Below are positions 1,771 to 24,165 of a stretch of DNA of 64,000 bases, piece after piece. The first letter of the stretch is position 1; the number at the start of each line of letters is the position of its first letter. Origin of the DNA: Acidobacteriota bacterium. GTDB taxonomy: Bacteria > Acidobacteriota > Terriglobia > Terriglobales > Acidobacteriaceae. The translations under genes and the position numbers were made by a program. Location of the stretch: positions 1 to 64,000 of the forward strand of contig QIAP01000042.1 of assembly GCA_003225075.1 (NCBI GenBank). The letters are read 5' to 3'. The notes beneath the pieces were generated by a model. The model was not told the DNA's origin, did not search any database, and saw nothing but the letters and a program-made list of their open reading frames with translations.

Positions 1771-3165
1771 TTGGCAACAACTAACGCGCCCAGCCAGCCC
1801 CATCAGCCTTTCGCTGTCCCTGCAAAGAAAAAATCCGTCCGCCTCACGCTCTGGCCGCTCGTCGCCGCCACTTTTTTCATGGTGTCTGGCGGAACCTATG
1901 GAACGGAAGACATCGTTCATGGCGCAGGCTACGGTCGCGCCATCCTCATCTTGCTGCTGACCCCGCTTCTCTGGAGCCTCCCTACGGCGTTTATGATCGG
2001 CGAGCTCTCCAGCGCTCTGCCCTTCGAAGGCGGTTACTACGCCTGGGTTCGGCGCGCCATGGGAAACTTTTGGGGATTTCAGGAAGCGTGGCTCTCGCTG
2101 GTGGCCTCGATCTTTGACATGGCAATCTACCCGACCTTGTTTGTCGCCTATCTCACGCGGATGTTTCCGTGGTTTGCCCAGGGACATCGCGGCGTCATGG
2201 TTGGCCTCGCCGTGGTTGTCGTTTGCGTTCTGCTTAACATCGCCGGCGTCCGCGTGGTTTCGACCACATCGCTCTGGCTCTTTTTTGCATTGTCCGCGCC
2301 TTTTGCGCTCATGGTGGTATTGGCGCCATTCAAGTACGCGGCGCTCCTGCACGCCGTCACTACGCCGACCTCGTCAAAAGTGGATATGATCGGCGGCTTG
2401 CTTATCGCCATGTGGAACTACATGGGCTGGGACAACGCCTCCACCATCGCAGCTGAAGTGGAGCGCCCGCAACGTACTTATCCTCGTGCCATGTTGGTGG
2501 CAGTGGCTATCGTCGCTCTCACGTATATTGTGCCGGTAGCCGCGGTGTGGATGACAGGACTCGCGCCCAGTGCGTGGGAAACCGGTTCATGGGCGGAGAT
2601 CGCTAGCATGCTCGGTGGGCCGCTACTACGAGTGGCTCTCGTACTGGGTGGCATGATCAGTGCTTTCGGCATGTTCAACGCACTTGTGATGAGCTACTCC
2701 CGCCTTCCGCTGGCCATGGCTCAGGACGGCATGCTACCGCGCGTGTTTGCCAAGCTGCACCCGCGCACCCGTGCTCCGTGGGTGGCGATCGTAGTTTGTG
2801 CGATGGGTTGGGCCATGTGTCTCGGCCTGGGGTTTGAACGACTGGTGACCATTGACATCCTGCTTTACGGATCCAGTCTAGCTCTGGAATTTGTCGCGCT
2901 GGTCGTCTTGCGCATCCGCGAGCCTGAATTGCCTCGCGTCTTCCGTGTCCCGGGCGGGATGTTCGGAGCCGTGGCTGTCGGCGTCACACCCATACTTTTG
3001 CTCGGTTTTTCGATTGTCCGCAGTCGGAGCGAGCAGGTGCTGGACATGAGTTCGTTTGCCTTTGGGATGATTCTGATCGGCGCAGGCGTCGTCGCCTACG
3101 CCTTGAATGTGTTGCTGAAACCTTCCGGTTGGGCGCCGGCAGAGAAGCCGGAAGCCGCCGCGTAG
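1771..3165 (+). CDS. APC-family amino acid/polyamine permease
   Basis: Predicted inner-membrane transporter of amino acids or related amines. The 464-residue product is almost entirely hydrophobic, with about 12 membrane segments. The N-terminal stretch has the glycine-rich pattern of APC transporters (VSGGTYGTEDIVHG), followed by the conserved EGGYYAWVRRAMG segment near TM2-3 and WNYMGWDN in the middle. The start is TTG 1771, supported by GGAGG at 1754-1758. An internal ATG would remove TM1. It follows dnaJ on the same strand after a 200-base gap holding a strong hairpin. The substrate cannot be told from sequence. Confidence 0.88.
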   Translation: MATTNAPSQPHQPFAVPAKKKSVRLTLWPLVAATFFMVSGGTYGTEDIVHGAGYGRAILILLLTPLLWSLPTAFMIGELSSALPFEGGYYAWVRRAMGNFWGFQEAWLSLVASIFDMAIYPTLFVAYLTRMFPWFAQGHRGVMVGLAVVVVCVLLNIAGVRVVSTTSLWLFFALSAPFALMVVLAPFKYAALLHAVTTPTSSKVDMIGGLLIAMWNYMGWDNASTIAAEVERPQRTYPRAMLVAVAIVALTYIVPVAAVWMTGLAPSAWETGSWAEIASMLGGPLLRVALVLGGMISAFGMFNALVMSYSRLPLAMAQDGMLPRVFAKLHPRTRAPWVAIVVCAMGWAMCLGLGFERLVTIDILLYGSSLALEFVALVVLRIREPELPRVFRVPGGMFGAVAVGVTPILLLGFSIVRSRSEQVLDMSSFAFGMILIGAGVVAYALNVLLKPSGWAPAEKPEAAA

Positions 3166-19931: not shown

Positions 19932-20180
19932 TCATCCACACTTGCCCGTGCCGTGACAGACCCTGCCCTTCGAACAGCAGTTGCCGGGCTCTGCCAGTTC
20001 GCCGTCCGGCCCAATGCAAGTCTGAGTGTGGAGGCACCAGAATAATCCATCGTTAGATCGTGGAACCGTCGGGTCCGGCTCGGAAAGCACGAACTGTCCC
20101 TTCCAGCGTAGGGCTGAGCAGAGATTAGGATTATTCGTATTGAAGCGATCCGATTCGCTGATCGTCCTTTCACGAATCAT
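19932..20180 (-). CDS. Small Cys-rich protein coupled to the molybdoenzyme operon
   Basis: An 82-residue protein with seven cysteines, six of them in the last 34 residues (WCLHTQTC, NCCSKGRVC, GTGKCG). Its ATG at 20180 overlaps the TGA of the FAD subunit as ATGA, so translation is very probably coupled. This context is the main reason to accept the frame over the competing one. There is no signal peptide or membrane helix. The Cys spacing could bind zinc or an iron-sulfur cluster, or form disulfides. I do not recognise the family. A role as accessory, maturation factor or extra electron-transfer subunit of the enzyme is only an inference. Confidence 0.65.
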   Translation of the reverse strand: MIRERTISESDRFNTNNPNLCSALRWKGQFVLSEPDPTVPRSNDGLFWCLHTQTCIGPDGELAEPGNCCSKGRVCHGTGKCG

Positions 20181-21169
20181 GCGGCACCTCCCGAGACGGC
20201 TTTCAGCAACGCGCGTTTCACCGACACGCGGGCAAGTTGAACCTTGTAAGCATTGTGTGAAAGTGGCTTAGCATTTTTCACGGCGGCATCGGCAGCCTTC
20301 TGCGCGATGTCGTCATCGATGCTCTGTCCACTCAGGACCTGCTCGGCCTCCGGTGAAGGCCACGGCAGAGGAGCGACATATCCCATCACCACGCGTGCTG
20401 CTTGCACATTGGAACCATTCATCTTCAGCGCAACCGCGGCGACTGCAAGCGGCCAGTCAAACGCCTGCTTCTGACGAACTTCGTAATGGGCGGCCTTCAC
20501 GCCTGTCGAGGCAGGAAGTACTACCTCCGTCACGATTTCGTTCGGTTGGAGGTCGTGCTCCCGCTCGGTTTCGGTCTTGGGAATCACGTAGAACTTCTCC
20601 AACGGAACTTCGCGTTTCCCCTTCGGACCTTCCACTCTGATTTTCGCCCCGTAGGCGATCAGGATTGGCACGATCGTCGAAGGACTGACAAACTTTGCAG
20701 GCCCATCGTTCCCCAAAATAGCGTGATAGCGGTTATCTCCGTCGGTCACCAGCTCTTTTCCGGTTTCATCCTTAGGCAGAAGGCCAAGTCCATTGCGGAA
20801 AAACCAGCAGCGCGGGCGCTGGCACAGGTTACCGCCCAGTGTTGCCATGTTGCGGATCTGGGGGCTGGCGGCTTCGATCAGCGCATCGGACAGTGCGGGA
20901 TAGTTCTTCCTTACGTTGGCGTCGTCAGCCAAGTCGCCGAGATTGGTGAGTGCTCCAATGCGCAATCCCTGGGCGTTGTAAGTGACACCCGTTAGATCCC
21001 TGATGTCTTTAATATTCACCAGACGTTTGGGGGCGACCACATCATCTTTCATCAGCGCAAGCAAGTCGGTGCCGCCAGCGAGGATTTCCGCTTGTCCCCA
21101 GTTGCTGGCGAGCAAGCTCACCGCCTGCGCCTTCGTCGTCGGACTCACGTATTCAAAAGGTCTCATCAC
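20177..21169 (-). CDS. Xanthine-dehydrogenase-family FAD-binding subunit
   Basis: Medium subunit that carries FAD between iron-sulfur clusters and the acceptor. The FAD pyrophosphate loop reads ILAGGTDLLALM (29-40) and the second loop reads ATLGGNLCQRPRC (109-121). In the PaoB/HcrB subgroup this second loop leads into a four-Cys segment holding a [4Fe-4S] cluster. Here only Cys116 and Cys121 remain, and the following loop (residues 125-147) has none. The C-terminal CODH-like flavin domain is complete, so 330 residues is normal. It overlaps the molybdopterin-subunit gene by ATGA and the small Cys-rich gene by ATGA. Confidence 0.9.
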   Translation of the reverse strand: MMRPFEYVSPTTKAQAVSLLASNWGQAEILAGGTDLLALMKDDVVAPKRLVNIKDIRDLTGVTYNAQGLRIGALTNLGDLADDANVRKNYPALSDALIEAASPQIRNMATLGGNLCQRPRCWFFRNGLGLLPKDETGKELVTDGDNRYHAILGNDGPAKFVSPSTIVPILIAYGAKIRVEGPKGKREVPLEKFYVIPKTETEREHDLQPNEIVTEVVLPASTGVKAAHYEVRQKQAFDWPLAVAAVALKMNGSNVQAARVVMGYVAPLPWPSPEAEQVLSGQSIDDDIAQKAADAAVKNAKPLSHNAYKVQLARVSVKRALLKAVSGGAA

Positions 21170-23532
21170 GCACCTGCTTTCTGGCTGAGCGCGGCGAGCA
21201 CACGATCAGGGGTGAGGGGCAGGAAAGGTACACGAACGCCGATTGCATTGGCCACGGCGTTTGAAATCGCCGCGCCGGGAGAGATTACAGGCGGCTCGCC
21301 CAATCCGATGACTCCGCGCTCGTCATATCCTTTGCCCGTCATCATATGCACGACCAGCTCGGGAATGTCGTTAAGACCAGCAAGCCGGTAGTACTCCATG
21401 TTGGGATTCAACATGCGGCCAGTGGTCTGGTCCATTACCTTTTCTTCGAAAAGTGCATAGCTGATGCCCATGATGAGAGCGCCGTAGCAACTGCTCTCGG
21501 CCATTTTGAGATCGATGATCAGCCCGCAATCCTGGACGGCGACCATCTTCTTGGCCTTGACGACGCCGGTGTCGGTGTCTACTTCGACTTCGGCCATGCT
21601 CACGCCACCGACACCGCTATTGGTAAGGTCAGGCGGCTTGCTCTTGTCAGGATTCTTGCCACGCACCGTCACCGGCATCGCACCGAGCTTGGAACATGCC
21701 TCCTTCCAGCTCAGCGACTTGCTGGGATTGCTCTTCACCCTCACCGTTCCGTTGACGGATTCCAAGTCGTCCGGCTGAGCATTCAGGGCTGGAGCGACTT
21801 TGGCAAAGAGCGCGTCGCGCGCATCTACGGCCGCACGCCGCGTGGACGAACTCACCCCACCCGGGGTTGTCGAACCTCCGGAACCACCCGAGGGTGGATA
21901 GAGCGTGTCGCCGATGTACAGTTTGATGCCGTCCATCGGAATTCCCAGGGTGTCCGCCGCAACTATCAGAATCGTAGTGCGTGTGCCGGTGCCGATGTCC
22001 TGCGTCCCCAGCTTGATGTCTACCGAACCATCAGGATGCAGAGTGAGGTCGCAGTCGCTTGCATGGCCGCGCCCACCCCAGGTATGCATTGAAAGGCCAA
22101 CGCCGCGAACGACGTTGCCAGATGCGTTCTGGCCTCTCGGATGCCACTTCTGTTTCCAACCCATCAGGTCGGAAGCTATGCCTAGTTCCTCGCGGTAGGT
22201 GTTTTGCCTATCCTTGGTCGCGAGTTCGATGTTCTTGAGGAAAAACTCGAGCGGATCCATGTTGAGCTTGGCCGCGAGATCATCAAGGGCGCACATCGTG
22301 ATCACCGCTGCCTGCGGGTGATTTGGCGCCCGCCAGGCTCGTGCCGGACCAATGTTGTTACGTATTGCGGTGTGTTCTTTGCGCTGGTTGGGAATGCTCA
22401 ACACGTAAGGTATTGGGGGCATACCGCCACCACCGGGACCTCCCGTTCCCCACGACTCCGATTGCCAAGCGACAATCGTGCCGTCTTTCTTCGCTCCGAC
22501 TTTCACCCGGGCATAGGCAGATGGGCGAGCTCCCGCTACCTTCAATTCCGAATCGCGCTCCAGCATGATCCGCACGGGCTTACCATCCGCCTTCTTCGAA
22601 ATTTCCGCGGTGGCAATTCCCCAACGATCGGGCCCGAACTTGCTGCCAAAGCCTCCGCCAATATGATCCTGATGTACTCGGATGTTGGTCGCCGGCACCT
22701 TCAGTAGCTCCGCCATCTGACCCGCAATACCCGACACATTCTGCGTGGACATGTGCACCAGCAGATGATCGTTATCCGTCCACTCTGAAGTGGAACCGTG
22801 GCTTTCCAGGCAGCAATGGGTGATGACCGGTGCGCCGTACAAGCCTTCGGAACTGACTTCAGCCTGAGCGAAAGCCTTCTCACCATCGCCAACCGTCTGT
22901 GCCGCAGCTTTCTGATAATTCGACTTCGGTCGAGTACCTTCCTCGGGATGAACTGTTGCCGCACGAATGGCGTTGATAACATCATCAGTGGCGCCATCCT
23001 CTTTGAGGCCGTTTAGGGTTTCCTCCTCCGGCTTGGAAGTAATGCCGTACTGCTGGATTTGCTCAACCATCTGTCGCGGTGGAACCTGGTTGTCGAGCAT
23101 CTCATCGATATCGTCCATGCTGATGGGCCCTTGGGCTTCCGCGGCTCCTTTTGGCGGTTCTGCATCGCTGACCAGATGGGGCAGCTTCTGGTACTTCACT
23201 TCAATGGAACGGATGGCGTCCTCGGCCGTCGGTTCATCTACAGCAGCGACCGCGACAATCTCATCGCCGGCCCAGTGGATGGTCGAGTTCGACTTTTGGA
23301 TTATGTGGACAGCCTTCACCCCCGGCATCTTCTCCGCCGCGCTGGTGTCAATGCTGATCACCTTCGCGTGCGCGTAAGGACAGCGCAAAATTTTGCCGAA
23401 GAGTAACCCTGGACGCTTGACGTCATAGGTGTACTTTGCTTGCCCCGATACTTTTACCGGGGAATCCACACGTGAAATGCGCTTTCCAATCAGAGTGCGA
23501 TGTCCGGCATCGGGCCAACTATAGTCGGGCAT
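21166..23532 (-). CDS. Xanthine-dehydrogenase-family molybdopterin-binding subunit
   Basis: Catalytic large subunit (788 residues) for hydroxylating an aldehyde or N-heterocycle. Conserved blocks include GIGGGFGSKFG-type DHIGGGFGSKFGPD, a GPARAWRAPNHPQ active-site loop, LGTQDIGTGT, and the final catalytic Glu in GLGEPP. The AYRCSFR loop of true CO dehydrogenase is absent, so this is not CoxL. Residues about 135-196 are a charged, helical insertion in the N-terminal domain, matching a short repeat domain seen in other acidobacterial proteins. It follows the 2Fe-2S gene by three bases and overlaps the FAD gene. It has no signal of its own, so export would be by piggyback on the Tat-tagged small subunit. 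Confidence 0.92.
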   Translation of the reverse strand: MPDYSWPDAGHRTLIGKRISRVDSPVKVSGQAKYTYDVKRPGLLFGKILRCPYAHAKVISIDTSAAEKMPGVKAVHIIQKSNSTIHWAGDEIVAVAAVDEPTAEDAIRSIEVKYQKLPHLVSDAEPPKGAAEAQGPISMDDIDEMLDNQVPPRQMVEQIQQYGITSKPEEETLNGLKEDGATDDVINAIRAATVHPEEGTRPKSNYQKAAAQTVGDGEKAFAQAEVSSEGLYGAPVITHCCLESHGSTSEWTDNDHLLVHMSTQNVSGIAGQMAELLKVPATNIRVHQDHIGGGFGSKFGPDRWGIATAEISKKADGKPVRIMLERDSELKVAGARPSAYARVKVGAKKDGTIVAWQSESWGTGGPGGGGMPPIPYVLSIPNQRKEHTAIRNNIGPARAWRAPNHPQAAVITMCALDDLAAKLNMDPLEFFLKNIELATKDRQNTYREELGIASDLMGWKQKWHPRGQNASGNVVRGVGLSMHTWGGRGHASDCDLTLHPDGSVDIKLGTQDIGTGTRTTILIVAADTLGIPMDGIKLYIGDTLYPPSGGSGGSTTPGGVSSSTRRAAVDARDALFAKVAPALNAQPDDLESVNGTVRVKSNPSKSLSWKEACSKLGAMPVTVRGKNPDKSKPPDLTNSGVGGVSMAEVEVDTDTGVVKAKKMVAVQDCGLIIDLKMAESSCYGALIMGISYALFEEKVMDQTTGRMLNPNMEYYRLAGLNDIPELVVHMMTGKGYDERGVIGLGEPPVISPGAAISNAVANAIGVRVPFLPLTPDRVLAALSQKAGA

Positions 23533-23535
23533 GGC

Positions 23536-24165
23536 TCACGCCCCTTTCTGCGCGACCTGCGCGATCGCTTGCTGAATGCCGTGATAGGTACCGCAGCGGC
23601 ACAGATTGCCGCTCAGCCCGTGGCGGATATCTTCGGCAGTAGGATTGGGATGCTTGTCCAGAAAGGCCTTGCACGCAACCACGAAGCCAGGAGTGCAAAA
23701 ACCGCATTGCGACGCATCATTGTCAACGAACGCCTGCTGAATCGGATGCAGCTTGCCCTGTTGCATCAAGGACTCGACCGTGGTGACCTGCTTGCCCTGG
23801 GCTTCGATGGCCAACACCGAACACGCATATACGGGTTTGTTATTTATCAGCACGGTGCAGGCACCACATTCCGCACGGTCGCATACGCGCTTAGCGCCGG
23901 TGATGTCGAATTCATCGCGCAGAGCATCGAGCAGAGTAACGCGCGGCTCCAGGTTCGCTTTGTACTTCTTGCCGTTGATGGTGAACTGCATGGCCCCGGC
24001 GCCGGGGCCATGGACCGGCACCTGTTCCCCCGCGGCCAATACCGCCTTTGGCCCCGCGACGAGGGGTACAGCTACCGAGATGCTGGAAATTTTGAGGAAG
24101 TCGCGCCTGGAAACGCCGGAGCGTTCGTCTTGCTTCTCTTTCTTATTCGAATCATCGTCACGCAT
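23536..24165 (-). CDS. Tat-exported [2Fe-2S] subunit of xanthine-dehydrogenase-family enzyme
   Basis: Small electron-transfer subunit (209 residues). A twin-arginine signal lies at residues 19-25 (SRRDFLK), followed by a hydrophobic stretch to AVLAAG. The plant-type ferredoxin cluster is CDRAECGACTVL with a later Cys (VYAC). The second cluster is CGFCTPG plus CRCGTYHGI. The signal places the whole complex in the periplasm, as for PaoA in the PaoABC aldehyde oxidoreductase. GGAGG sits about 7 bases before ATG 24165. It is the first gene of a tightly spaced minus-strand operon of four genes. Confidence 0.93.
   Translation of the reverse strand: MRDDDSNKKEKQDERSGVSRRDFLKISSISVAVPLVAGPKAVLAAGEQVPVHGPGAGAMQFTINGKKYKANLEPRVTLLDALRDEFDITGAKRVCDRAECGACTVLINNKPVYACSVLAIEAQGKQVTTVESLMQQGKLHPIQQAFVDNDASQCGFCTPGFVVACKAFLDKHPNPTAEDIRHGLSGNLCRCGTYHGIQQAIAQVAQKGA

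Follow-up and report, generated by a model that had tools for sequence, protein, structure and literature searches.

A predicted four-helix domain is inserted into the molybdenum-cofactor (Mo) subunit of a molybdenum hydroxylase encoded in the window, i.e. the stretch of 64,000 nucleotides of acidobacterial DNA analysed here. The host is ordinary, a known kind of enzyme of the aldehyde/xanthine oxidase type; what is new is the inserted domain and its placement. A single insertion took place in an ancestor shared by one family-level group (f1), and profile matches indicate that the insert belongs to a family of domains found commonly in exported acidobacterial proteins.

The host enzyme is encoded by three genes that form a minus-strand operon in the order Fe-S, Mo and FAD subunit, both partner genes being adjacent to the Mo subunit gene. 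Its features are as follows:

23536-24165, minus strand: [2Fe-2S] subunit, operon gene 1, with the Tat-type signal SRRDFLK (PF01799, PF00111; PaoA-like in NCBIfam)
21166-23532, minus strand: Mo-cofactor subunit, 788 aa, PaoC/XdhA-like, carrier of the insert (PF01315, PF02738, PF20256; best solved relatives PaoC 5g5g/5g5h)
22228-22917, minus strand: MoCoBD_1 (PF02738), residues 206-435, starting directly after the insert (Pfam)
21361-22170, minus strand: MoCoBD_2 (PF20256), residues 455-724 (Pfam)
21295-21297, minus strand: Glu746, matching the active-site glutamate of the family (alignment with the GxGE motif of PaoC)
20177-21169, minus strand: FAD subunit, operon gene 3, with a 4-base overlap with the Mo subunit gene (PF00941, PF03450)

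All three Pfam domains of the Mo subunit, including the a/b-hammerhead domain PF01315, scored above the Pfam cut-off, and the predicted fold matched members of the xanthine oxidase family at TM 0.7-0.8. The best fold match was PaoC (TM 0.78-0.84, about 25% identical) from Escherichia coli PaoABC (PDB 5g5g), which likewise consists of Fe-S, Mo and FAD subunits and whose Tat signal, like the putative one here, is confined to the Fe-S subunit. The two systems differ in gene order, as Mo precedes FAD in the window operon, and in the inserted helical domain, which is absent from PaoC; with 315.2 bits against the NCBIfam PaoC model (cut-off 1180) the window Mo subunit is PaoABC-like but not a member by score. 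Similarly, 4-hydroxybenzoyl-CoA reductase (PDB 1rm6), which with PaoC is the closest solved relative in both sequence and fold and also about 25% identical, shares the fold of the Mo subunit, and its beta subunit is the best-scoring relative of the window FAD subunit, whereas the score of 303.8 bits falls short of the NCBIfam cut-off of 994.55 and the insert is absent. None of the NCBIfam equivalog models reached its cut-off with the host enzyme.

In PaoB and in the beta subunit of 4-hydroxybenzoyl-CoA reductase, a loop of the FAD subunit binds a [4Fe-4S] cluster. The corresponding loop of the window FAD subunit, in contrast to PaoABC, has just two cysteines (CQRPRC, residues 116 and 121), which makes a four-cysteine [4Fe-4S] cluster impossible, and the cluster thus seems to have been lost from this type of FAD subunit. 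The two-cysteine loop is common to insert-bearing and insert-less relatives. Glu746, which would be catalytic as in the xanthine oxidase family generally, is invariant in the alignment columns of 54 orthologues, and the active-site region including this residue is unchanged in the orthologue alignment whether the insert is present or absent, so that a catalytic role of the insert is unlikely. The host enzyme probably folds and functions as usual.

The only putative Tat-type signal of the operon is that of the Fe-S subunit, in which SRRDFLK is followed by a hydrophobic stretch; its match to the TAT_signal profile is weak (E 0.01, below cut-off). For E. coli PaoABC, it has been reported that the signal of PaoA alone exports the whole complex and that none is exported if one subunit is missing (PMC4273604). 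By analogy with PaoABC, we infer from the signal on the partner Fe-S subunit that the window enzyme would be periplasmic, the same compartment as that predicted for most other carriers of the domain.

The insert itself and its parts were located by comparison of orthologues with and without it and by structure prediction:

22894-23169, minus strand: whole enlarged linker (residues 122-213), exceeding that of insert-less orthologues by about 73 residues (alignment)
22948-23133, minus strand: four-helix inserted domain, residues ~134-195 (alignments with and without insert; profile A1 match at 22948-23130; structure models)
23092-23118, minus strand: insert helix 1, residues 139-147 (structure models)
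23080-23091, minus strand: N-Q-V-P turn, residues 148-151 (comparison of enzyme inserts with other carriers)
23047-23079, minus strand: insert helix 2, residues 152-162 (structure models)
22999-23025, minus strand: insert helix 3, residues 170-178 (structure models)
22960-22986, minus strand: insert helix 4, residues 183-191 (structure models)

The peptide quoted in the initial annotation does correspond to residues 137-192 of the 788-codon open reading frame at 21166-23532, and the coordinates given for it, 22957-23124, are exact once read on the minus strand; a stop interrupts the plus strand there. These residues lie within the domain, but the insertion is larger, as residues 122-213 replace a linker of ~19 residues and the domain itself spans ~134-195. 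The placement inside the first domain had to be revised as well: the insert occupies the linker between the a/b-hammerhead domain (PF01315) and MoCoBD_1, which begins at residue 206. In insert-less orthologues, the chain passes from '...LPHLV(I/V)D' to '...GDP' via the ~19-residue linker, for which the window protein has 92 residues. These orthologues have no equivalent loop, and the segment is therefore not a normal loop of the family. As this linker between two domains differs from one relative to another, we infer that the domain placed there is exposed on the enzyme surface.

The helical character proposed for the segment was borne out by structure prediction. AlphaFold2 prediction of the whole subunit with 54 orthologues as input gave four helices in the insert (block pLDDT ~61-88), and a model of the domain alone gave the same four helices with a pLDDT of 94-97; with this model and the homologous domains detected by profile, the segment is neither disordered nor devoid of homologues. 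Profile comparison of the two domain halves (probability 71%, E 3.8e-5 over 20 columns) weakly suggests that the domain may consist of two related helical hairpins. Across 51 distinct enzyme inserts, the hydrophobic positions match the general domain pattern, and the N-Q-V-P turn is largely retained (N in 41/51, Q in 41/51, P in 47/51). Other carriers have at this site A/G, then G (18/22, at the Q position), then L/V and then S/P. The conservation of the turn amid drift of the other insert residues makes it a candidate site for contacting either the host enzyme or a partner.

The distribution of the insert was followed in 200 genomes of the window's family-level group f1, whose named relatives include 'gp1' Acidobacteria and Candidatus Sulfotelmatobacter. 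At a threshold of E <= 1e-140, orthologues of the Mo subunit were found in 56 of these genomes, one of them truncated (G037). The insert is present in 51 of the 55 genomes with an intact orthologue, across ~30 genera, and is conserved in these orthologues at 25-85% identity; the four genomes without it all belong to genus g54 (L103-L106), where the operon is retained. Orthologues of other acidobacterial families are insert-less, ~73 residues shorter and 57-72% identical over core residues 209-787. In a gene tree built from the core only, with the insert columns left out, all f1 proteins form one clade (support 99) and g54 is nested within it as sister to an insert-bearing protein, so that one gain and one loss, the latter in a single genus, suffice. 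Loss is also indicated by the g54 linker, which retains 'S-x-x-Y-K', resembling the 'S-x-Y-x-K' found downstream of the insert in the others. Second copies of the enzyme in two genomes (G048 and G172) contain the insert too; the window's genome encodes five other MoCoBD_1 proteins, none of which has a copy of it.

Close pairs of orthologues gave dN/dS values of mostly 0.03-0.25 (maximum 0.40) for the insert and ~0.04-0.13 for the core, and the insert is under purifying selection. Together with the insert-specific N-Q-V-P turn, this argues against junk sequence. An artefact or frameshift was ruled out by the open frame in ~50 orthologues and by a codon-position pattern of coding DNA. Amino-acid differences accumulate 2.3 times faster in the insert than in the core, and this faster change, along with the loss in g54 with the operon kept, led to the conclusion that the insert is not essential to the enzyme.

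Relatives of the insert were then sought with profile A1, which comprises 23 enzyme inserts only, in 61 related genomes. Besides the enzyme inserts, it recovered further proteins, including a pair of TPR proteins encoded in the genome of the window (G000:C129, E 3.5e-6; G000:C222, E 1e-4), and other carriers were matched by the insert-only profile at E 1e-4 to 1e-11 with most or all of the domain covered. Over the open frames of the sampled loci, A1 gave 60 matches at E < 0.01, nearly all of them proteins other than this enzyme; the number includes some duplicates of a few proteins, and the two weakest-looking matches (L134 and L136) are probably due to chance. The reversed A1 profile yielded zero matches at E < 0.01 on the same open frames, and a reversed alignment with 15 rows, not 23, yielded zero at E <= 0.05 in the same 61 genomes. 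In the two TPR proteins (G000:C129 at L102; G000:C222 at L163 and L184) the domain lies near the N-terminus, preceded in G000:C222 by a signal peptide. The enlarged profile A3, which includes non-enzyme members and is hence less independent, detected it in 83 (~42%) of 199 genomes sampled from the whole phylum.

According to Pfam assignments, the domain is found N-terminal to TPR repeats, before PDZ, at the C-terminus of an M19 dipeptidase and in CsgG-like proteins; further carriers are PEGA-like proteins (domain C-terminal; this label is our reading of the sequence) and many short proteins of no assigned function. A simple rule assigned a start resembling a signal peptide to 35 of the 48 other carriers, a few proteins appearing twice in this count. 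The initial annotation had associated the segment with a short domain of acidobacterial signalling and hypothetical proteins. The latter association is well founded, as the insert profiles match many other, mostly hypothetical, acidobacterial proteins and the reversed profiles none, whereas no signalling protein was recognised among the TPR, PDZ, PEGA-like, CsgG-like, M19-dipeptidase and functionally unassigned carriers. The domain of these carriers has the length, motif register and apparent two-hairpin layout of the enzyme insert, its type being summarised as 'LTN-DVI ... AGLS--VI--KI ... F--S---L--LK-AGVSD-VI-AM'; a four-helix fold is predicted for the window copy. The domain is internal in the host enzyme; elsewhere it usually starts 25-60 residues past the protein start or ends at the C-terminus, and its placement in the enzyme is as unusual as had been supposed, most other carriers examined having it near one of the termini. 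The closest non-enzyme match to the inserts (E ~1e-11) is the C-terminal domain of an exported M19 dipeptidase (L098, G105:C29). One short exported protein (L205) has two copies of the domain, and at another locus (L118) it is present in two neighbouring reading frames.

In Pfam and NCBIfam, the best match of the window's domain copy had an E-value of 0.016, below cut-off, and no convincing family was found. One other copy of the domain exceeded the DUF7626 cut-off by half a bit with no single significant stretch; this match and one to CPSase_L_D3 were both discounted. Sequence searches of the PDB with the insert and alignments as queries returned no credible match; low E-values for designed pentatricopeptide proteins proved to be sums of many sub-threshold repeats. 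Foldseek comparison of the domain model with the PDB gave nothing below E 2, two versions of the domain found no match in a plasmid collection, which says little on other phyla, and literature searches retrieved no description of the domain. The unnamed domain is common in this large phylum of soil bacteria, as sampled here, and lacks a curated model, so that naming a profile for it would give an annotation to many exported proteins now listed as 'hypothetical'. The molybdoenzyme provides a good handle on its function, since natural versions with the insert and without it (g54 and other families) allow its effect on assembly, location and electron transfer to be compared directly.

Regarding its role, we rank highest, and hold with about even confidence, the proposal that the insert is a non-catalytic docking or assembly surface module of a presumably periplasmic enzyme; this rests on how varied the host proteins are and on the conservation of the turn specific to the inserts. 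A four-helix module inserted once into the hammerhead/MoCoBD_1 linker of a PaoABC-like, probably Tat-exported molybdenum hydroxylase would, in the periplasm, bind the enzyme to a further subunit copy, an electron-accepting partner or an envelope component; the earlier suggestion that the insert may recruit a partner is reasonable. A bolder version, which we regard as improbable, holds that the domain family is a phylum-wide interaction module tethering unrelated exported proteins (TPR, PDZ, dipeptidase, molybdenum hydroxylase) to one common envelope partner, in which case acidobacteria would have linked a redox enzyme to an envelope network via a mid-protein domain insertion. Next in rank, and doubtful, is a tolerated passenger, kept by inertia in a permissive linker and selected just to fold without disturbing the enzyme. 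The faster evolution of the insert and its clean loss from g54, operon intact, would fit such a passenger, but its retention in 51 of 55 genomes across ~30 genera and the conserved N-Q-V-P turn would not.

The insert could also pack on the enzyme's own subunits and thereby stabilise the heterotrimer or set a dimer-of-trimers state. Quaternary state is indeed variable, given that PaoABC, the nearest solved relative, unlike family members does not dimerise (PMC3958847), and the N-Q-V-P turn could contact the enzyme core; however, orthologues that lack the insert, with core identities of up to 72%, manage without it, and we judge this structural role unlikely. Lowest in rank, and very unlikely in our estimate, is the idea that a small c-type cytochrome docks on the insert to accept electrons, which is brought into play by the gene directly upstream of some operons:

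2759-3073 of locus L148, co-oriented with the Fe-S/Mo/FAD genes: upstream cytochrome c gene

Such genes encode a single-haem cytochrome c of 105 aa that has a signal peptide; on the same strand, one is found immediately upstream in 14 distinct insert-bearing operons (L148 and L070, L073, L078, L081, L082, L087, L088, L089, L091, L092, L096, L145 and L146) and in 0 of 20 insert-less operons, for which the upstream DNA was read (0.4 kb only in one). Many insert-bearing operons, including that of the window, nevertheless have no cytochrome neighbour, the window's genome contains only a weak cytochrome match, and both traits may simply share ancestry. One of these operons (L145) resides on a 3.6-kb contig labelled Nitrospiraceae, where a 76%-identical insert-bearing orthologue accompanies the cytochrome gene; this is probably a misbinned acidobacterial contig.
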